The notes: generated by a model from the letters alone, not told the origin. DNA of 64,000 nucleotides from Actinomycetota bacterium (GCA_004297305.1 SCTR01000005.1:1-64000); one strand, 5' to 3'; shown: positions 7,905-64,000, numbered from the stretch's first letter. Program-made: numbers and translations.

Positions 7905-8246
<342 letters not shown>

Positions 8247-9572
8247 CTACACCTCCACGCTCTCTCGGTGACCGATGGTCCCACCGGTGACACCGGTGAA
8301 GTCGTACGCGCCCTCCGCGTGCTCCACCAGGTCGATGCCGTTGACCTCGTCCTCCTCGGACACCCGGAAGCCGAGCGTCTTGTGCAGGATGAAGCCGATG
8401 ATCAAGGTGGCGATGAACGAGTACGCCAGGACCGAGATGACACCGATGAACTGGTGGTAGAGCAGCTCCCAGCCACCGCCCTCGCCGCCGCCGTAGAAGA
8501 CGCCGTCAAAGCCCAAGGAGTTGACCTGCGTCGTGGCGAAAAAGCCGATGAACAGGCTGCCGATGATGCCGCCGACCAAGTGAACGCCAACGACATCGAG
8601 GGAGTCGTCGTATCCGATCTTGTACTTCAGGCTCACGGCGAGCGCGCAGATCGCGCCGGCCAGAACACCGAGGACCACCGCCGCCCACGGGGCGACGAAG
8701 GCGCAGGCCGGCGTGATCGCGACCAAGCCGGCGACGGCGCCGGACGCGGCGCCCAGGCTCGTCGGATGCCCATCGCGGATCTTTTCCACGAGCAACCAGC
8801 CCATGACTGCCGCTGCCGTACAGACCTGCGTGTTGAGCAGGGCAACGGCAGCTGTGTCCGTGGCACCGAGCGCTGAGCCGGCGTTGAAGCCGAACCAGCC
8901 GAACCACAGCAAGCCAGAACCCAGCAGTACGAGCGTCAGGTTGTGCGGCTTCATCGGGGTACGCGGCCAGCCCACACGACGACCGAGAACGATCGCCAAC
9001 GCGAGGCCGGCAGCACCGGCGTTGATGTGGACCGCTGTGCCGCCGGCGAAGTCGAGGACGCCGAGATCGGCCAACCAACCCTTGCCGGTGGGGTCCCCGT
9101 CGTCGACCACCGTGCCGAAGTCGAACACCCAGTGAGCCACTGGGAAGTAGACGATCGACACCCACAGGGCCACGAAGATGCCCCAGGTCAGGAACTTCGC
9201 ACGGTCGGCGATCGCTCCGGAGATCAACGCCGGAGTGATGATCGCGAACATGAGCTGGAAAGCGGCGAACGCCAGCTCCGGGATGGGGTACTGGCCGCCG
9301 TTGTTCACGAACTGGCCGGACGCGGCTCCCAGATGTGACAGCTCGAAGGCGCCGTAGAACTTGCTACCCGAGTCCCCGAAGGCGAGCGAGTACCCGTAGA
9401 TCACCCACAGCACGCTGACGATGCCGATCGTGACGAACGACATCATCATCATGTTGAGGACGCTCTTCGAGCGGGTCATGCCGCCGTAGAAGAACGCGAG
9501 TCCAGGCGTCATTAGCAGCACCAGCGCGGCGCTTGCCAGAACCCAGGCTGTGTCGCCCGAGTTGAGTTCCAT
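8247..9572 (-). CDS. amt: Ammonium transporter Amt
   Basis: Amt/Mep/Rh family channel for ammonium with about 11 membrane segments, 441 residues from the chosen start. Visible family features are MTPGLAFFYGGMTRSKSVLNMMM near the N-terminus, the conserved DFAGGTAVHINAG segment and the pore histidines further on. I chose ATG at 9570-9572, preceded by a strong GGAGGAGGG ribosome site, over an in-frame start 30 bases upstream. It heads the amt-glnB-glnD operon, and possible GlnR-type sites lie about 105-150 bp upstream. Confidence 0.95.
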   Translation of the reverse strand: MELNSGDTAWVLASAALVLLMTPGLAFFYGGMTRSKSVLNMMMMSFVTIGIVSVLWVIYGYSLAFGDSGSKFYGAFELSHLGAASGQFVNNGGQYPIPELAFAAFQLMFAIITPALISGAIADRAKFLTWGIFVALWVSIVYFPVAHWVFDFGTVVDDGDPTGKGWLADLGVLDFAGGTAVHINAGAAGLALAIVLGRRVGWPRTPMKPHNLTLVLLGSGLLWFGWFGFNAGSALGATDTAAVALLNTQVCTAAAVMGWLLVEKIRDGHPTSLGAASGAVAGLVAITPACAFVAPWAAVVLGVLAGAICALAVSLKYKIGYDDSLDVVGVHLVGGIIGSLFIGFFATTQVNSLGFDGVFYGGGEGGGWELLYHQFIGVISVLAYSFIATLIIGFILHKTLGFRVSEEDEVNGIDLVEHAEGAYDFTGVTGGTIGHRESVEV

Positions 9573-9620
9573 CCGACCCTCCTCCACCGGGAGTGCACAC
9601 ACTTGCGGGGGTCGTCGTTG

Positions 9621-9643
9621 ACCCTCTGTTGGGCACAGAGGGT
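9621..9643. terminator. Perfect inverted repeat between ftsY and amt
   Basis: A 9-bp perfect inverted repeat (9621-9629 with 9635-9643, loop TGGGC) lies 49 bp upstream of the amt start and about 150 bp past the ftsY stop. It could terminate ftsY or act in the amt leader; the sequence does not decide between these. Confidence 0.35.
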
Positions 9644-9675
9644 GGAGCGGACGTGTTGCCGGCGAGTCCGCCTCG

Positions 9676-9722
9676 TGTTACGGGAGTGTGACGATCGGGT
9701 CGGCTGCGTTACGTCCGGATGA
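9676..9722. promoter_or_regulatory. Possible GlnR-type nitrogen boxes upstream of amt
   Basis: GTTAC at 9676-9680, a 6-bp spacer and GTGAC at 9687-9691, then GTTAC at 9707-9711, a 6-bp spacer and ATGAA at 9718-9722, resemble the actinobacterial GlnR pattern gTnAC-n6-GaAAc. The second half-sites are imperfect. The position upstream of an ammonium transporter fits known GlnR targets, but the call rests on pattern and context only. Confidence 0.3.
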
Positions 9723-9793
9723 ACGCCGCTGCTGCGTGACGGTGAGATCCGGCGGACGCCGTACCTCAGTCGGCGATCACTGGCCGACGATCG

Positions 9794-10987
9794 TCAGTCG
9801 ACGATCGCCTCGACGAAGGCAACCGGGTCGAACGGCGCGAGGTCGTCGGGACCCTCGCCGAGTCCGACGAGCTTGACCGGGACGCCGAGCTCCCGCTGGA
9901 CCGCGACCACGATCCCGCCCTTGGCGGTGCCGTCCAGCTTGGTCAGCACCACGCCGGTGACGTCGACCACCTCGGCGAACACCCGGGCCTGCACCAGGCC
10001 GTTCTGGCCCGTGGTGGCGTCGAGCACCAGCAGGACCTCGTCGACCGGGCCGTGCCGTTCCACGACCCGCTTCACCTTGCCGAGCTCGTCCATCAGGCCG
10101 ACCTTGGTGTGCAACCGGCCCGCGGTGTCGACCAGGACCGCGTCGGCTTCCTGCTCGGTGCCGGTCCGGACCGCGTCGAACGCCACCGCGGCCGGGTCGC
10201 CGCCCTCGGGTCCCCGGATCACGGTCGCGCCGACCCGGTCTCCCCAGGTCTGCAACTGATCGGCGGCCGCGGCGCGGAAGGTGTCAGCCGCGGCCAGGAC
10301 CACCTGCCGGCCGTCGGCGACCAGCACCCGCGCCAACTTGCCAGTCGTGGTGGTCTTGCCGGTGCCGTTGACCCCGACGACGAGCACGACCGCGGGCCGG
10401 CCGTCATGCCGGGCCGACAGCAGCGACCGGTCGGTGTCCGGTCCGACCAGCGCGAGCAGCTCGTCGCGCAGCAACCGCTGCAGCGTCGCGGCATCCCGTA
10501 CGCCGTCGACCCGCACCCGGGTCCGCAGCGCGGCGACCAGCTCGGCGGTCGGCGCGACGCCGAGGTCGGCGGCCAGCAGCGTCTCTTCGACCTCGTCCCA
10601 GGTCGCGTCATCCAGCACGTCGCGCGACAGCAGCGCGAGCAGGCCCTTGCCGACCGCGGAGTTGGATCGGGCGAGCCGGGCCCGGAGCCGGGCGAGCCGG
10701 CCGGCAGTCGGGGCCGGGACCTCGAGTCCTGGCTCGGCCACCAGCGCGGGGTCGGCGGCGGCACCGGCCGGCGCGGGCTCGAGCAGGTCGACCTGATCGA
10801 TGCCCCGGCGGGGCGTGTCCCGCGGGACGGACGCGTCGTCCCCGACGCCCGGCGTGTAGTCGATGCCGGGCCGGGGCGGTGGCGACGCCCGGCGCCGCCG
10901 GCCCGGGACGACGTACGCGAGGCCCACGACCACGGCCACCACGACGACGGCGAGAGCAACGACCAGGAACAAAGCGAGGGAGTCCAC
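9794..10987 (-). CDS. ftsY: SRP receptor FtsY
   Basis: Membrane-associated receptor GTPase for the Ffh-ribosome complex. A hydrophobic N-terminal segment (about 5-27) is followed by a short acidic/Pro linker, then the N domain and the G domain with GVNGTGKTTTTGKL, DTAGRLHTK and TKLDGTAKGG. The 397-residue length with one N-terminal membrane helix is normal for actinobacteria. It follows smc and a small membrane gene on the same strand. Confidence 0.96.
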   Translation of the reverse strand: MDSLALFLVVALAVVVVAVVVGLAYVVPGRRRRASPPPRPGIDYTPGVGDDASVPRDTPRRGIDQVDLLEPAPAGAAADPALVAEPGLEVPAPTAGRLARLRARLARSNSAVGKGLLALLSRDVLDDATWDEVEETLLAADLGVAPTAELVAALRTRVRVDGVRDAATLQRLLRDELLALVGPDTDRSLLSARHDGRPAVVLVVGVNGTGKTTTTGKLARVLVADGRQVVLAAADTFRAAAADQLQTWGDRVGATVIRGPEGGDPAAVAFDAVRTGTEQEADAVLVDTAGRLHTKVGLMDELGKVKRVVERHGPVDEVLLVLDATTGQNGLVQARVFAEVVDVTGVVLTKLDGTAKGGIVVAVQRELGVPVKLVGLGEGPDDLAPFDPVAFVEAIVD

Positions 10988-56963: not shown

Positions 56964-58217
56964 TCACCGGCGGTGACGGCCAGCCGAGCGAATCGGTCGA
57001 ATGTCCTGGGGTTCGGCGGGACCGGGTTGGACGGCGCCCGGCTGCGCCGCTGTGGGCTGTACGGCGTTCAGCTGTACCGCGTTGGGCTGTACCGCGTTGG
57101 GCTGTACGACGTTGGGCTGCACGGCATTGGGCCGGTCGGTACCGGCAGTATCTGCTGCGGCGTTGTCCTGCAACGCGGCAGCCACCGCACCGGCGATCGC
57201 CTGCTCGACCCGGGTGGCACGGCGACGACGAGCGGTCAGGTACGCCGCGATCACGGCAATCACACCGAGCAGGACGAGGAGCTGACCGAACGGGAATGCC
57301 CACAGGCCGCTGCTACCGACTGCTTCGGCGACCGGTACCGCAAGGGTTCCGGCGCTCGAGTATGGCTCGAGCACGACCTCCGTGGTGATGCGAACGGTCG
57401 GCCAGCTGCCGGGGACGTATTCCGTCCGGGTCAGCGACGCTCCGGGCAGCAACTCCGGCAGGTCGGCCGGCGACACCGTGGCGGCGGCGAGGCCGAACGG
57501 TCCAGCGCTGGTGATCCGTTGCCGCGCTTCCAGTCGCACGTTGCCGGTATTGGTCGCCGTATAGGTGACCGCGACGGTGCCACCTGCCGCGGGATTCAGG
57601 GTTCCGTCGTAGCTGGTCTGGACGTCGGTGACGCTCAGCGCGGGCTGCAATTGCCCGGCGACCCGGATGTACACCCGCGAACCGATCCGGCGGTCGACCG
57701 CGACGGGGCCGCCACCGCTGCTGGTCACCAGGGAGGTGACGATGCCGCCGGTGTGGTCGCCGGGAGTGGCGTTGGCGGGCACGGTCAAGGTGAACGGCAC
57801 GGTCACCGACTGCCCGGCCGGGACCGTGACGGACGGTGACGCCATCGTGATCCAGGTCCCGACGTCGTTCGACTTCTGGTCGGCAGCCAGCAGATCCAGG
57901 CCGCCGCTGGCGGTGGTGAACGCGTCACTGGCATAGACGCGCAGGTCCAGTGCCCGGTCGCTGCGATTGATGATCTCGATGCCGTCGCGCAACGTGCCGC
58001 CGGGTTGCGCGTCGTACGAGAAGTTCGGCCGGCCGGTGCCGACCTGGTTGTCCGCCGGCTCGGTGCCCCAGGTGACCGTCGTGCCGGGCGCGGTGGCCCC
58101 GGGAACCGGTGCGGGCGGATCGGCAGCGGCCGCCGCACCGCAGCCGAGGAACGCCACTGCCACAACGGCAATGGCGATCGCGGCACGCCGGATCCGACTA
58201 CGCACGGTGGCTGGCAC
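56964..58217 (-). CDS. DUF916-type WxL-interacting membrane protein
   Basis: A 417-residue exported protein: signal peptide (about 1-32), a DUF916 peptidoglycan-binding-like domain (GTLRDGIEIINRSDRALDLRVYASDAF, PAGQSVTVPFTLTVPANATPGDHTGG), a second Ig-like domain, one C-terminal membrane helix (about 308-328, FGQLLVLLGVIAVIAAYL), then a cytoplasmic tail of NAVQP repeats. DUF916 proteins in Firmicutes partner WxL surface proteins. The neighbour at 58328-59989 has a WxL-like end. Confidence 0.8.
   Translation of the reverse strand: MPATVRSRIRRAAIAIAVVAVAFLGCGAAAAADPPAPVPGATAPGTTVTWGTEPADNQVGTGRPNFSYDAQPGGTLRDGIEIINRSDRALDLRVYASDAFTTASGGLDLLAADQKSNDVGTWITMASPSVTVPAGQSVTVPFTLTVPANATPGDHTGGIVTSLVTSSGGGPVAVDRRIGSRVYIRVAGQLQPALSVTDVQTSYDGTLNPAAGGTVAVTYTATNTGNVRLEARQRITSAGPFGLAAATVSPADLPELLPGASLTRTEYVPGSWPTVRITTEVVLEPYSSAGTLAVPVAEAVGSSGLWAFPFGQLLVLLGVIAVIAAYLTARRRRATRVEQAIAGAVAAALQDNAAADTAGTDRPNAVQPNVVQPNAVQPNAVQLNAVQPTAAQPGAVQPGPAEPQDIRPIRSAGRHRR
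57054..57128. repeat. 15-bp tandem repeat x5 in the DUF916 gene
   Basis: Five 15-bp units from 57054 encode NAVQP-like pentapeptides in the cytoplasmic tail. Further decayed copies flank it. The period maintains the frame. Confidence 0.8.
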
Positions 58218-58282
58218 GCCGCGGCGTGGCGTCGCTGTCCGGTGTCACGTCGTCGTCCTTCGTCCGGTGAATCGGCGGAGGA

Positions 58283-58321
58283 GGGTCGTGGCCCGGGTCC
58301 CGTCAACCCGGACCACGACCC
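58283..58321 (-). terminator. Hairpin after the HtaA-WxL gene
   Basis: A 16-bp stem (58283-58298 with 58306-58321), one G:T pair, 7-nt loop, starts 6 bp past the stop of the gene at 58328. It separates that gene from the DUF916 gene, which therefore may have its own promoter or depend on read-through. Confidence 0.6.
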
Positions 58322-58327
58322 CGTCAC

Positions 58328-59989
58328 TCAGCTGAGCGCGGTGAGCGTCAGCGTGGCGGTGTACGTGCCGGCAGCCGTGGTGACCGGCACTCGCAGGTCG
58401 AGCGCGGCACCGAGCGTGCCGGTGCCCTTCTCGTGGCCGACGACGGCGGACCCGAGGACCGAGGAGTCCTTGAGGCCGTTGCCGCTGTCGATCCCCGGTG
58501 TCACTGCCGCTCCGGCGGTGGCGCCCGCGCCCGGCGCGGTCACCGACGGGGTCCAGCCGAGGTACTTGCCGGACAGCCCGCCGGTGAAGTCGCCGACCTG
58601 GCCGGACACCGACCACGCCGGCGAACCCGCCCGGGTGTCGGTGACCTTGACCGGCTTCAGGTCGCCGGTGGACTGCAGGTAGGCACCCTGGTTGCTTGCC
58701 TCCGACAGCGTGACGGCGTGGTCGGTCGCGTCGATCGTCCAGACGAACTCGCCTGCGGGCTCCTGCACCGGAACGGTCGCGGTGATGGTCTGCTCATGCT
58801 CACCCGGCCCGGGCGGCGGCGTCGTGGCGAACGTGATCGGCGTGAAGGTCTCGTACCCGGTGCTGTTGGCACCCGAACCGCCGTAGGTGTAGATGCCGTA
58901 GTTGCCGGTGGCCGGAACGCTGGCGGTGTACGCCTCCTTGACGTTCAGGGTCGCGGTGAAGCTGCCGTCCGGGTTGAGCTCGATAGCGCCGGCGGCGGCA
59001 CCGCCGATGGTCGCCATGCTGGCGGCCGGGACCGCCCACTTGGTCCCACCAGCACTGGCCGGTGACGCCGATCGTGCACTGCCCGGCGCGCCGGCGGTCG
59101 GCTGCCACACGTCGGCGAACTTGCCGAACACGACATACACACCGCCCGGTACGCCGTTCAACGGCGGCCGAGTGCCGTTCACCGTCGGGAAGAATCCCGT
59201 GCCCGTCACCGTCACGGTGTCGCCAGCGGGGTCGAACGTGTTCTTGGACAGGGTGACCGAGCCGTTCGGCGTCGCCGGGGGAACCACGACGGGCTCGAGG
59301 GCCACCGACGCCGAGATGTCGTCCAACGCCGCACCCTCGGCGAGGAAGTTCTGCAGCGCGGACGCGCCGGCGGCCGTCAACGTGACACCGGTACCGGACA
59401 CCGTCGCCGAGTTCGTCCCGAGACTCACCGACGCCGTCGCGATACTGCCCAGCGCGACCTGGCTGAGCGACGTCGTGCCCGGCGGCTGACCGACGTTGTT
59501 CTCCGGGATGACCACGGTGACGTCGGCGAGCACCTGGCCGGTCGTGCCGTTAACGACCACGGTCGGGTTGGCGATCGTGATATCGAAGGCGTGCGACGGG
59601 AAGTGGTAGGCCACCGCGCCGGATCCGTTGATAGTGGCCGCCGTTGCGCTGCCGACGGAACCGCTGTTGGCGGCGAACACGTACGGCAGTGTCTCGTTGT
59701 TGCCGGCGACCGACGGCGTGCCGGCGGAGTCGAAGGTGGCCGGCGCCGTCACCGTGATCCGTTGCCCGGCAGGCAACGCACCGATCGGCGGCAGGGCGGC
59801 GGTCTGGTTGCCGACGTAGGTCCGGAACGCGGCCCGGAATCCCCAGTTCACCGTGCCGCTGTCGACATCGGCAGCGCTCGCCGAAGTCGCCCCGACGACT
59901 CCAGCTGTCGCGACCAGCGCGAGCACCGCGGTGGTCGCGACGAGGGCGCGCTTGCGACGCGGGCCCCTCGTCTTCGTTGACGTGGACAT
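58328..59989 (-). CDS. Secreted HtaA-domain protein with WxL-like C-terminus
   Basis: A 553-residue surface protein. A Sec signal (about 1-38, ending ATSASA) is followed by an HtaA-type heme-binding domain (VNWGFRAAFRTYVGN), then an Ig-like region with GGVYVVFGKFADVW that recurs in the protein at 62693-63721, and a C-terminal domain (about 400-553) with LKPVKVTDTRAGSPAWSVSG and GTYTATLTLTALS, the layout of a WxL domain with degenerate W-x-L motifs. The ATG at 59987-59989 lies 66 bp from an iron box. The neighbouring DUF916 protein may anchor it. Confidence 0.75.
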   Translation of the reverse strand: MSTSTKTRGPRRKRALVATTAVLALVATAGVVGATSASAADVDSGTVNWGFRAAFRTYVGNQTAALPPIGALPAGQRITVTAPATFDSAGTPSVAGNNETLPYVFAANSGSVGSATAATINGSGAVAYHFPSHAFDITIANPTVVVNGTTGQVLADVTVVIPENNVGQPPGTTSLSQVALGSIATASVSLGTNSATVSGTGVTLTAAGASALQNFLAEGAALDDISASVALEPVVVPPATPNGSVTLSKNTFDPAGDTVTVTGTGFFPTVNGTRPPLNGVPGGVYVVFGKFADVWQPTAGAPGSARSASPASAGGTKWAVPAASMATIGGAAAGAIELNPDGSFTATLNVKEAYTASVPATGNYGIYTYGGSGANSTGYETFTPITFATTPPPGPGEHEQTITATVPVQEPAGEFVWTIDATDHAVTLSEASNQGAYLQSTGDLKPVKVTDTRAGSPAWSVSGQVGDFTGGLSGKYLGWTPSVTAPGAGATAGAAVTPGIDSGNGLKDSSVLGSAVVGHEKGTGTLGAALDLRVPVTTAAGTYTATLTLTALS

Positions 59990-60054: not shown

Positions 60055-60073
60055 CGAGGCAAGGCTTACCTAA
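60055..60073. promoter_or_regulatory. DtxR/IdeR-type iron box upstream of HtaA-WxL gene
   Basis: On the minus strand TTAGGTAAGCCTTGCCTCG matches 14 of 19 positions of the corynebacterial/mycobacterial DtxR/IdeR consensus. The left half TTAGGT is perfect. It lies 66 bp upstream of the ATG at 59989. Confidence 0.55.
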
Positions 60074-60253: not shown

Positions 60254-61396
60254 TCAGCGCGAACGAACGACCGTGAGCACCTTCGACGCCGTGCTCTTGC
60301 TCACCGTCCCGTTTCCCTTGAACACCACGGTGATCTTGTGCTTTCCGGGCGCCAGCCGCGGCAGCACGATGCTGGCCGCACCCTTCTTCAGCTTGGCCTT
60401 CCGGATGACCTTCCGGCCGTCCTTGACCACGACCTTGCCGGTCGCCGCCGCCAGCGACCCCGGCAGCGCGACGACAACCTTGAGCTTCACCGTCGTGCCG
60501 TAGCGGACCTTGGCCTGCTTGCCCTTGCCGACGTTCTTGAACGACAGGCCGACGGTCGACGGCGGCTGCGTGCTCACGCCGTAGCGCACCGACAGCGCCG
60601 ACGGCGCCTTCTTGGTGTCCGCGCCGCCCCCGCTGCTGTACCAGTACGACGACAGCCCGGTCTGCAGCTGGAAGTCGACGAACGAGCGCGGCCAGGAGCC
60701 CCACCCGGCGGCGGTGCGGTTCTGCGGCGTACCGCCACCGGGAGCGTCGTAGCCGACCCCGGCGTACCGGGGGGTGGTGGTGAATCCGTAGGAATTCGCG
60801 CCGGCGACACCGGTCAGGTCGGCGACGACGACGCCGGCGACCGCGGGCAGCGGCGTCTTGACGTCCGGTTTGTCCATGCTGGAGGCATAGCCGCCGAGCG
60901 TCGCGATCAGCTGACCGGTGCCATCCGGCTGCACCACCAGTCGCGGATCGGTGATGGAGAACGGCAGCAGGCCGCCGTAGAAGTTGACCGACCAGGTGCC
61001 GGTCCATTGGATCGTCGAGACGCCGGTCACCGGGTCGACGCTGCCAGCGCCTCCGCCGACCACGACCTTCTGGCCCATCGCGCCGGCCGCGGCGCCGTCG
61101 CATTTCGTGGCGAAGGACGGGGTGCCACCGCCCTTGACGACGCTGACATTGCCTGCGGCAGTGGCGTAGGACGCCAGCGTGCCGTCGGACGTCCCGGCCG
61201 AGAAATAGTTGCAGCCGCCGTGCGGCGGGGCCGATTGCAACTCCGCGTTCCCGGTCCATTCCAGCACCGCGCCGGTCACCGGGGTCGGCGCAGCGAGGGC
61301 AGCGGGCGCTGCGACGACCGTGGCCCCCGCTACGGCGACGGCCAGTCCGCCAGCAGCGAGCAGCCGCGGATACCGGCGCGCTGTGACCAGGTGCAT
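60254..61396 (-). CDS. Secreted HtaA/Ig-like protein, paralogue A
   Basis: A 380-residue secreted protein: signal peptide (about 1-36, ending ALAA), an HtaA-like domain (GAVLEWTGNAELQS, CNYFSAGTSDG, IQWTGTWSVNFYGG) and a C-terminal Ig-like domain (VVALPGSLAAATGKVVVKDG, LAPGKHKITVVFKG). Two cysteines (CNYF, TKCDG) may form a disulfide. It is a clear paralogue of the gene at 61463-62602. Heme binding is inferred from the family. ATG at 61394-61396 is chosen; longer frame upstream has no ribosome site. Confidence 0.78.
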   Translation of the reverse strand: MHLVTARRYPRLLAAGGLAVAVAGATVVAAPAALAAPTPVTGAVLEWTGNAELQSAPPHGGCNYFSAGTSDGTLASYATAAGNVSVVKGGGTPSFATKCDGAAAGAMGQKVVVGGGAGSVDPVTGVSTIQWTGTWSVNFYGGLLPFSITDPRLVVQPDGTGQLIATLGGYASSMDKPDVKTPLPAVAGVVVADLTGVAGANSYGFTTTPRYAGVGYDAPGGGTPQNRTAAGWGSWPRSFVDFQLQTGLSSYWYSSGGGADTKKAPSALSVRYGVSTQPPSTVGLSFKNVGKGKQAKVRYGTTVKLKVVVALPGSLAAATGKVVVKDGRKVIRKAKLKKGAASIVLPRLAPGKHKITVVFKGNGTVSKSTASKVLTVVRSR

Positions 61397-61421
61397 GTCA
61401 TCTCCTGTTTCCCAGTGGACA

Positions 61422-61455
61422 GGGGCACCGCCGGCAGGCAAACCGGCGGTGCCCC
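61422..61455 (-). terminator. Perfect 13-bp hairpin between the two paralogues
   Basis: Stem 61422-61434 with 61443-61455, 8-nt loop, lies 8 bp after the stop of the upstream paralogue and 26 bp before the start of the next. It could end the first transcript or reduce expression of the downstream gene. Confidence 0.65.
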
Positions 61456-61462
61456 AAGCGGT

Positions 61463-62602
61463 CTAGCGGACGACGCGGATGCTCTTGACGGTCGAGGTCG
61501 CCGCGGGAACTCCGCCGGCGCCGGGGAAGACGACCGTCAGCTTGTGGCGTCCCGGGGCCAGCGCCGGAAGGGTGACCACGGCCTTGCCGTCGTCGAGCAC
61601 GCCCTTCTTGATCTTCTTCGTCCCGTCGTAGACGAAGACCTTGCCCTCAGCAGGGAACGCCGAACCGCGAAGCGCAGCGGTCACCACGGCCTTGAGCTTC
61701 AGCCGCTTGGCGGCCGGAACCGTCCGCAGCTTGGTGCCGAGCTTGATGCCGGCGGTCGCCGTGACCGGGCCCAGGTCGTAGTCGACCTCGACCGCCGCCG
61801 GCGCCTTGGTGCCGTCGGATGCCGCGCCGCTGGAGTAGAAGAAGGACGCCAGTCCGGTCGTGGCCTGGAAGTCGACGAACGACGCCGGCCACGAACCCCA
61901 GCCGGCCGCCGTACGGTTCTGCGGCGCGGAGCCGGTCGCGTTGTACTCGACGCCGGAGTACAGCGGTGTGGCGTCGAATCCGGTCACCGGAGTCAGCCCG
62001 GCGAAGCGGGCCACGACCACGTTGGGTACGGCGGCGACCGGCGTGGCCGGCCCCGAGGAGCCCATGCTGCCCGCGTAGCCATCCAGCGTCGCGGTCACGG
62101 TGCTGCTGCCGTCGGCCGCCACGGTCAGTTTCGGGTTGGTGATACTGAACGGCGCCAACCCGCCGTACATGTTGACCGACCAGGTCCCGGTCCACTGGAT
62201 GGTGCCCGCACCGGTGGCCGGGTCGGTCGTGCCGGTACCCCCGGTGACCACGACCTGTTGGTCGACCCCCGCCGCGGTGGTCGCACCGTCGCACCGGGTC
62301 GCGTACGTCGCGGCCGCGGCTGCCTTGCGGATCGAGACGTTGCCGGCAGTCGCGGCGTAGCTGTCGGCGAGGTCGCCGGGATCCGACAGGCCGGCCGAGA
62401 AGTAGTGGCACTGACCAGGTATCGGTGCCGCGGACTGCAACAGCCGGCTGCCGCTCCAGGTCAGGACCGCGCCGGTCACGTCGATCGGCGCGGCGCTGGC
62501 CGCCGGGGCCGCCGCGATCCCGAGGGTGCCGATGAGGGCGGTCGACGCTGCGGTCGAGACGGCCGCGATGGCGGTACGGCGCAACCGGCTGCGGTGGGGC
62601 AT
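61463..62602 (-). CDS. Secreted HtaA/Ig-like protein, paralogue B
   Basis: A 379-residue protein: signal peptide (about 1-38, ending ASAA), an HtaA-like domain (GAVLTWSGSRLLQS, CHYFSAGLSDPG, IQWTGTWSVNMYGGLAPFS), the shared PQNRTAAGWGSWP segment, and a C-terminal Ig-like domain (LAPGRHKLTVVFPG). It matches paralogue A over its whole length, indicating tandem duplication. Two cysteines are conserved between them. Confidence 0.78.
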   Translation of the reverse strand: MPHRSRLRRTAIAAVSTAASTALIGTLGIAAAPAASAAPIDVTGAVLTWSGSRLLQSAAPIPGQCHYFSAGLSDPGDLADSYAATAGNVSIRKAAAAATYATRCDGATTAAGVDQQVVVTGGTGTTDPATGAGTIQWTGTWSVNMYGGLAPFSITNPKLTVAADGSSTVTATLDGYAGSMGSSGPATPVAAVPNVVVARFAGLTPVTGFDATPLYSGVEYNATGSAPQNRTAAGWGSWPASFVDFQATTGLASFFYSSGAASDGTKAPAAVEVDYDLGPVTATAGIKLGTKLRTVPAAKRLKLKAVVTAALRGSAFPAEGKVFVYDGTKKIKKGVLDDGKAVVTLPALAPGRHKLTVVFPGAGGVPAATSTVKSIRVVR

Positions 62603-62692: not shown

Positions 62693-63721
62693 TCAGCCGG
62701 ATCCGGCCGAGCGGCGGGTCAGGACCAGCACCGCGCCACTGACCGCGGCGACGAGGACCGCCGCCGCGACGACCCACCACCCCCGGGGGGCGGCGTCCGT
62801 GCCGGGCGACGACCCGGCCGCCAGGGCAATGGCGGACTGCTCAGCCGTGGGCGTGGCTGCCGAGGGTGCCCCCGCGGAGGCGGCGGGATCGGTGCTGACC
62901 GAACTGGTGGGAGTCGCTGCGGCCGTGGGGGTATCGCTCGTCGCCACGGACGGCACGGGGTCGCTGGGCTGCTGCGCCGGGGCACTGGCGGAACTGGCCT
63001 TCGGCGTGGGCTTGGGTGTCGCCGTGGCCGACGCCTGCGGCGTGGCGCGCGCCGTCGGTTTGGCCGAGGCCTGGCCGGACGCCCCGGCCTTGCCGACGAA
63101 GGTGAGCGGGGCGAACACCTCGTTCGTCGCACTGGCCTTGCCGTGGGCGCCGATCGTGAACACGCCGCATTGGACCTGCTGGCAGTCGACGGTGTGCTTG
63201 GCGCCGGCGCTGTCCAGGTAGCTGAACCTGGCGCCCGGGACGACCAGCGTCACCGGCTTCGGCCCCGCCGGCCAGTTCCCGCCCGGGTCCATGTGGAAGG
63301 CCGTCGCCTCGCCCGACAGTCCGCCGCCGGTGAACGAGATCAGCCGTACGCCACCGCTGCCGTCGTCGCGGGTGTCGGCTCCCCCACCGTCCCCGGGATA
63401 CGCGTAGCTGACCCCGAATGTCCCGTTGTCGCTGCTGGACGACCGGTGGCTGGGACCCCAGGACCCGCCCGGCTTCACCCAGCCGAAGGCGAGATACACC
63501 CCGCCGAAGACCTCGGCGCCCGGCGCGTGCGGCGGGACCAGGTAGCCGGTCCCGGTGACCGTGATCGTGGTGGGACCGGTGGCGGTGAGCCGGCTGGCGG
63601 ACAACTGCAGAGCCGGCGCCGGAGCCGCCGTGGCCGGCAGGGCCGAGATCGTGCCGACCGCAGGCACCGCGAGGACCGCGGCGGCAAGCACGCTGCGGGT
63701 AATCCGATGCCTGCCCGTCAC
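62693..63721 (-). CDS. Anchored surface protein of the heme locus
   Basis: A 342-residue protein: signal peptide (about 1-33), an Ig-like domain with TITVTGTGYLVPP and FGGVYLAFGWVKPGGSW, which corresponds to the central domain of the HtaA-WxL protein, a CQQVQC cysteine pair, a long Ala/Pro/Thr/Ser stalk (about 220-305) and a C-terminal membrane helix (VVAAAVLVAAVSGAVLVL) with an Arg end. The stalk would reach through the wall. The start is GTG at 63719-63721 after a GGAGG; an iron box is directly upstream. Confidence 0.72.
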   Translation of the reverse strand: MTGRHRITRSVLAAAVLAVPAVGTISALPATAAPAPALQLSASRLTATGPTTITVTGTGYLVPPHAPGAEVFGGVYLAFGWVKPGGSWGPSHRSSSSDNGTFGVSYAYPGDGGGADTRDDGSGGVRLISFTGGGLSGEATAFHMDPGGNWPAGPKPVTLVVPGARFSYLDSAGAKHTVDCQQVQCGVFTIGAHGKASATNEVFAPLTFVGKAGASGQASAKPTARATPQASATATPKPTPKASSASAPAQQPSDPVPSVATSDTPTAAATPTSSVSTDPAASAGAPSAATPTAEQSAIALAAGSSPGTDAAPRGWWVVAAAVLVAAVSGAVLVLTRRSAGSG

Positions 63722-63748: not shown

Positions 63749-63767
63749 TTAGGAGAGGCTAACCTCA
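63749..63767. promoter_or_regulatory. DtxR/IdeR-type iron box
   Basis: TTAGGAGAGGCTAACCTCA matches 16 of 19 positions of the DtxR/IdeR consensus TTAGGTTAGSCTAACCTAA. It lies 28 bp upstream of the surface-protein start (63721) and 14 bp past the stop of the hemin ATPase gene. This predicts iron repression of the downstream genes. Confidence 0.75.
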
Positions 63768-63780
63768 GTTGGGCGATTCG

Positions 63781-64000
63781 TCACGCCGGGCCCCGCCACG
63801 GCACCACCAGCAGTGCGCCGGTCCGCGGGTGGGTGATCAGTTCCACCCGGACCTGGTAGACCTCGCTGAGCAGGTCCTCGGTGAAGACCTCGCGCGGCGC
63901 ACCCCACGCCCGCAGCCGGCCGTCGGCCATGAGCGCCACCTGGTCGGCATACGCGGCGGTGAGGCCGAGGTCGTGCAGGACGACGACCACGGCGTCGCCA
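63781..64000 (-). CDS. hmuV: Hemin ABC transporter ATP-binding protein (C-terminal part)
   Basis: The gene runs off the window; only the C-terminal 72 or so residues are seen. VVVVLHDLGLTAAYADQVAL contains the H-loop His, followed by MADGRLRAWGAPREVFTEDLLSEVYQVRVELI, typical of the end of HmuV/FhuC-type ATPases. Its place beside HtaA-type genes suggests hemin uptake. The Walker and signature motifs lie outside. Confidence 0.8.
   Translation of the reverse strand, partial: GDAVVVVLHDLGLTAAYADQVALMADGRLRAWGAPREVFTEDLLSEVYQVRVELITHPRTGALLVVPWRGPA

Follow-up and report, generated by a model that had tools for sequence, protein, structure and literature searches.

A putative sortase-independent WxL/DUF916 tether for an HtaA heme receptor in actinobacteria

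Introduction

In Firmicutes, proteins ending in a WxL domain and their WxL-interacting partners (WxLIP) have been described as a platform for host binding and virulence. The WxL domain is considered to take proteins to the surface through non-covalent binding to peptidoglycan (PMC5817068, citing Brinster 2007) and carries a conserved, hydrogen-bonded pair of Asp at W-8 and Arg at W-6 (PMC9772566), while the transmembrane (TM) helix of WxLIP has been proposed to enter the host membrane (PMC10599100). The two partners have been solved together in structure 9i25, where Enterococcus faecium WxLIP (chain 9i25_C) is bound to a long WxL protein (chain 9i25_A). In Actinomycetota, DUF916 proteins and metallophosphatases have been listed among the neighbours of Ang-2/HupE (PMC12537917). 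Here we analyze a stretch of 64,000 nucleotides (hereafter the window; GCA_004297305.1, SCTR01000005.1:1-64000) from the 2.68 Mb, high-GC genome of an Actinomycetota bacterium, in which an HtaA heme-uptake protein with a WxL-family C-terminus is encoded next to a DUF916 protein. A preliminary description of the window had suggested that such a pair might hold a heme-binding domain on the wall without sortase.

Results

The gene pair is situated close to the end of the window on the minus strand. Both genes and their main parts are as follows:

58328..59989, minus strand: HtaA-WxL protein, 553 aa, with signal peptide, HtaA domain, Ig-like middle region and C-terminal WxL-family domain
59309..59860, minus strand: HtaA (CR) heme-binding domain, residues 44-227 (PF04213, E 3.5e-22)
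58331..58792, minus strand: C-terminal WxL-family domain, residues 400-553 (hhalign, PF13731 in relatives, AF2 model)
56964..58217, minus strand: DUF916/WxLIP-like partner, 417 aa, with signal peptide, two Ig-like domains, TM helix and basic tail
57225..57290, minus strand: predicted TM helix of the DUF916 protein, approximate (AF2 helix and alignment consensus), with RRRR and a conserved helical tail behind it

The gap between the two genes is 110 bp, which together with their shared strand suggests a single transcript; a simple scan of the region around the pair found neither terminators nor promoters.

The WxL-family domain closes the HtaA protein, ending at residue 553 of 553, and in the 48 WxL proteins listed it lies at the C-terminus or at most about 12 residues from it. 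Its two motifs read D451-T-R453-A-G-S-P-A-W459-S-V and Y543-TATL-T-L549-T-A551, and are thus present as the preliminary description had quoted them. In the first, the Trp as well as the Asp at W-8 and the Arg at W-6 are retained and Leu is replaced by Val; in the second, Trp is replaced by Leu and Leu by Ala, and the pattern YXXX(L/I/V)TWXLXXXP is not matched. A search with residues 395-553 showed that the same domain adjoins nearly all DUF916 loci fetched from other actinobacteria, and 45 domains gathered near these genes formed the family alignment (A1). The Asp at -8 (43/45), the Arg at -6 (45/45), the first Trp (42/45) and the Tyr of the second motif (43/45) are conserved throughout this family, in which the second Trp is represented by Leu, Phe or Ile and the second Leu mostly by Ala or Leu.

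Neither the full-length HtaA protein nor a search of its own genome gave a match to the Pfam WxL model PF13731 at E <= 1, and NCBIfam matched neither the HtaA nor the DUF916 protein. With the curated models alone missing the window domain, a family-specific profile was needed. Among the isolated family domains, 35 of the 45 matched PF13731 (best E 1.1e-8), which was the main Pfam family, with few others appearing. When the family was compared by hhalign with 14 WxL proteins from Firmicutes plasmids (A8), the match reached 97.4% with an E-value of 1.5e-11 over 139 columns (all hhalign E-values are from single comparisons), and the nearer relatives of the window domain alone still gave 82.7% (E 9.4e-6), whereas swapped controls (WxL against WxLIP) gave 0.4%. 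The AF2 model of the domain is a beta sandwich (pLDDT 90.9). Judged by these profile comparisons, the HtaA protein ends, over its last ~155 residues, in a divergent WxL domain whose second motif is changed. A search of solved structures by sequence recovered 9i25_A with the Firmicutes WxL profile (E 5.6e-6). With the family profile, a glycoside hydrolase (5l7v/5l7r, E 0.016) was the sole match, which we take to be chance or generic Ig similarity; a further alignment (A6) returned no useful match.

The neighbouring protein matches PF06030 over the cut-off (E 2.5e-12), a family now named WxLIP_PGBD following the proposal in PMC10599100; its second domain gave no Pfam match to DUF3324 at E <= 1. 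Modelling on the DUF916 alignment (A5) predicted (pLDDT 90.6) a pair of Ig-like domains and one long helix, 310-355, at the C-terminal end, in line with the earlier view of a DUF916 protein with a membrane helix beside HtaA. The best Foldseek match of this model was the E. faecium WxLIP structure 9i1y (E 4e-13), the second was 9i25_C, both over ~270 columns (270 columns to the 267-residue chain 9i1y_A), and the alignment of DUF916 proteins matched Firmicutes WxLIP by hhalign (94.6%, E 6.6e-8). By profile and predicted fold, the neighbour is thus a WxLIP homolog. As RRRR follows the helix, the positive-inside rule would make the tail cytoplasmic, with the helix crossing the membrane of the bacterium itself. 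A conserved ExARVxxAVAxA segment was observed after the helix and RRRR of DUF916 proteins (about 57150-57225 in the window), suggesting a cytoplasmic contact.

The distribution of the pair was determined in 297 genomes of the class Actinomycetes. The WxL domain was detected with the family profile in 84 genomes and DUF916 with profile A9 in 103, and both were present in 80 genomes as compared to 29 expected (Fisher p about 9e-46, phylogeny ignored); the association is far beyond chance. DUF916 was not detected in the remaining 4 of the 84 WxL genomes. The curated PF13731 was over its cut-off in just 14 of the 297 genomes, thus overlooking most actinobacterial members. Using the curated DUF916 model on the same sample, a WxL domain was found within 3 kb of 80 of the 104 DUF916 genes and directly upstream on the same strand for 75 of them, with a median gap of 268 bp between the two domains. 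Conversely, a scan of named genomes for WxL only returned 80 loci, with DUF916 directly downstream in most, from Streptomyces, Actinokineospora, Microbacterium, Leifsonia, Cellulomonas, Oerskovia, Jiangella, Actinoplanes and others. Outside the class, a sample of 150 genomes from the phylum added 5 genomes with the domain, and the same order of WxL followed by DUF916 was seen in most of the Firmicutes plasmid loci that were read.

The C-termini of HtaA proteins were classed by a crude motif and hydropathy test as WxL, LPxTG- or LAxTG-like motif with hydrophobic segment, hydrophobic segment alone, or none. All seven WxL-type HtaA proteins are beside DUF916, hence DUF916 genes are not widely separated from such proteins. 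In contrast, the 50 HtaA proteins without DUF916 comprised 23 with LPxTG-like signals, 16 with TM tails, 11 with none (one cut by a contig end) and no WxL type. The pattern in HtaA proteins is therefore one of substitution, the WxL domain standing in for LPxTG-like or TM tails. In loci of Streptomyces, Actinokineospora, Lentzea and Actinosynnema, 12 HtaA proteins are of the LAxTG type and the WxL domain is carried by another protein. Beside one HtaA-WxL gene, a DUF916 homolog (G012:C1:4522857-4523304) was matched in two overlapping pieces, reflecting a frameshift or a sequencing error.

Upstream of the pair, the window continues with the following genes and iron boxes:

60055..60073, minus strand: DtxR/IdeR-like iron box TTAGGTAAGCCTTGCCTCG, 16/19, 66 bp ahead of the start of the HtaA-WxL gene
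60254..61396, minus strand: protein with variant HtaA-like domain and Big_3_5 (Pfam), no visible C-terminal anchor
61463..62602, minus strand: second protein of this type (variant HtaA-like and Big_3_5), sharing 52% identity with the first, no visible C-terminal anchor
62693..63721, minus strand: Ig-like protein in the heme cluster with a C-terminal hydrophobic segment, no Pfam match
63749..63767, no strand assigned: second iron box of the DtxR/IdeR type, 16/19, preceding the Ig-like gene
63781..64000, minus strand: 3' end of an HmuV-like ABC ATPase gene, the rest beyond the window
C5:67515, outside the window: third DtxR/IdeR-like iron box, 16/19, upstream of hmuO

Beyond the window (C5:64614-67479) follow hmuU (FecCD permease), hmuT (periplasmic-binding protein) and hmuO (heme oxygenase). 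The locus is therefore a heme cluster with HmuO, HmuTUV and HtaA-like proteins, and it has counterparts in several other lineages, as heme oxygenase and/or importer genes confirmed by Pfam adjoin the WxL-DUF916 pair in Actinokineospora (L085), at the loci L039, L042, L043 and L044, and in Streptomyces (L082). In the Streptomyces locus, the WxL protein at L082:6041-7468 has an N-terminal module that shares 40% identity over 305 aa with the variant HtaA-like protein at 60254-61441. At a similar place in Actinokineospora (L085:11514-12554) lies an Ig-like protein that likewise matches no Pfam family and has a hydrophobic segment at its C-terminus.

Five Markov-resampled copies of the 64-kb window gave a top iron-box score of 13. 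Matches of at least 14/19 were found in 16 of 18 heme loci versus 2 of 19 non-heme WxL loci, one of the latter two also containing an HtaA gene. The two heme loci lacking such a box (L082 and L083) are both from Streptomyces, and a larger stretch of the L082 genome (L041) has boxes at 19/19 and 18/19. These matches suggest that the heme cluster may be controlled by iron through DtxR/IdeR.

The pair is not confined to heme loci. Among the 48 WxL proteins, other domains included HtaA (8), choice-of-anchor M (11), purple acid phosphatase (5) and one ice-binding protein. In three loci (L125:4166-7480, L069:2487-5822 and L136:3603-7477) the gene order is a HupE_UreJ_2 protein (Ang-2-like), a metallophosphatase with terminal WxL domain, and DUF916. 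Choice-of-anchor M/TIGR03773 proteins ending in a WxL-family domain were also observed (L049:6375-7847 and 7950-10937; L047:6234-7727), for which this domain apparently is a further anchor type. A heme-only function was rejected, since most actinobacterial pairs carry other cargo; the pair rather resembles a general-purpose tether, with a leaning towards the acquisition of metals and heme. Thus, the proposal that the pair serves heme uptake is supported by the heme loci of several lineages, but not as a specific role.

Discussion

We propose that the HtaA heme receptor is held at the envelope by a sortase-independent WxL/WxLIP tether, a general device of which heme is one use, and give this reading a probability of about 0.77. 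The pair would take the place of a C-terminal TM helix or sortase signal, with the WxL domain of HtaA binding the DUF916 ectodomain as in the E. faecium complex 9i25, an extension from the Firmicutes complex that we make by homology. The TM helix of the partner, possibly together with peptidoglycan binding by either protein, would then keep the heme domain near HmuTUV, and the iron boxes would regulate the locus. Because DUF916 has a TM helix and a basic tail, anchoring to wall peptidoglycan is no more likely than a tether in the membrane. The phrase "without sortase" in the preliminary description is apt for a sortase-independent mechanism, but not for the organism, since a sortase gene in the genome rules out a sortase-less one.

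Several observations weigh against this reading. The isolated window domain scored below the PF13731 cut-off (E 0.029, 14.8 versus 25 bits), and the change in its second motif could mean that it folds or binds differently. Foldseek with the domain model alone found nothing at E <= 0.001, and the WxL chain 9i25_A was not in the top 50; the WxL case therefore rests on the profile comparison and the partner. Furthermore, 24 of the 104 DUF916 genes have no listed WxL domain within 3 kb, although some are near contig ends, and gene order, even if conserved, is evidence that the genes are inherited together, not that the proteins touch. As for the heme ligand, alignment of the window HtaA domain to the solved CR domains 6js9, 6jsa and 8smu, with ligand roles as given in PMC12494546, showed that the axial Tyr and helper His positions are retained, but the propionate-binding Ser and Tyr positions are changed, and heme binding is therefore likely but not certain.

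The domain model (mf500166c931d, window 58331-58831) has a weak fold likeness to chaperone-usher pilins and Pyrodictium cannulae (E ~1e-2). This likeness raised the idea of a donor strand, by which the WxL domain would be completed by a strand of the membrane-anchored WxLIP-like partner in the manner of pilins, forming a general actinobacterial sortase-independent tether that scaffolds heme and metal acquisition proteins. We consider this more elaborate version tentative and less likely than not.

An alternative to the WxL/WxLIP tether is that the WxL domain itself binds peptidoglycan, DUF916 being accessory, so that HtaA would be a true cell-wall protein retained independently of its partner. 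Direct peptidoglycan binding has been proposed for Firmicutes WxL domains (PMC5817068, citing Brinster 2007), and the four WxL genomes without detected DUF916 would agree with it. However, retention of DUF916 in 80 of 84 WxL genomes, mostly in adjacent position, and the presence of a DUF916 neighbour at every WxL-type HtaA found make independence from the partner unlikely. A role mainly as a membrane-proximal complex, in which DUF916 would hold or hand over heme-loaded HtaA near HmuTUV, or sense HtaA through its conserved tail, with anchoring being secondary, is less probable still: while the TM helix with the basic tail and ExARVxxAVAxA segment behind it, and the position of the pair next to hmuTUV in heme loci, would suit it, the same pair carries phosphatase, choice-of-anchor M and other cargo, and we therefore reject a heme-specific role. 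Finally, a generic Ig-like or pilin-like sandwich that is WxL-like by convergence and unpaired with DUF916 is hardly credible, as the weak pilin and glycoside hydrolase matches of the domain alone, none at E <= 0.001, stand against a profile-profile match to Firmicutes WxL at E 1.5e-11, in which the motif positions agree, and controls at 0.4%, as well as against the adjacency to DUF916.

If the WxL/WxLIP tether is correct, the WxL/WxLIP system would be a general way to hold proteins at the monoderm surface and would provide HtaA receptors with a third means of attachment, in addition to TM helices and sortase signals. It would also help to explain the DUF916 neighbours at Ang-2 metal loci. A literature search, with subscription papers outside its scope and absence therefore not being proof, found no description of an actinobacterial WxL-DUF916 pair beyond the remark on DUF916 neighbourhoods in PMC12537917. 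The pair is neither a new kind of system nor unique to heme, but an apparently undescribed actinobacterial branch of WxL/WxLIP.

Compared to the corynebacterial HtaA/ChtA-HmuTUV system (PMC12494546), the locus shares the HtaA (CR) domain, HmuTUV and heme oxygenase, whereas the C-terminal nonpolar segment of Corynebacterium diphtheriae HtaA/ChtA, thought to be a plasma-membrane tether, is replaced by the WxL domain. The Ang-2/HupE-UreJ_2 "anglerase" loci of PMC12537917 resemble the three loci described above, in which HupE_UreJ_2, metallophosphatase and DUF916 genes stand in a row; the terminal WxL-family domain that we found on the phosphatase is not mentioned in the passages of that paper that were consulted.

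The closest relatives are the Firmicutes WxL/WxLIP (DUF916-DUF3324) clusters (PMC10599100, PMC9772566; 9i1y, 9i25), which likewise encode a secreted protein ending in a WxL-family domain and, next to it, a DUF916 partner that carries two Ig-like domains and, at the C-terminus, a TM helix, often with the WxL gene directly upstream, and to which homology is indicated by profile for both proteins and by fold for the partner. In contrast to Firmicutes, the second W-x-L is replaced in actinobacteria (Leu, Phe or Ile for Trp; mostly Ala or Leu for Leu), the second domain of the partner has no DUF3324 Pfam match, and the loci often hold one WxL protein instead of a small and a large one. The cargo is heme or metal acquisition instead of host binding, and the hosts of the pair include many genera not known as gut commensals. 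Placing the DUF916 helix in the bacterium's own membrane, as the basic tail suggests, also differs from the proposal of PMC10599100 that it enters the host membrane, and, if the tether is correct, the WxLIP helix would be expected to reside in the bacterium's own membrane as well.

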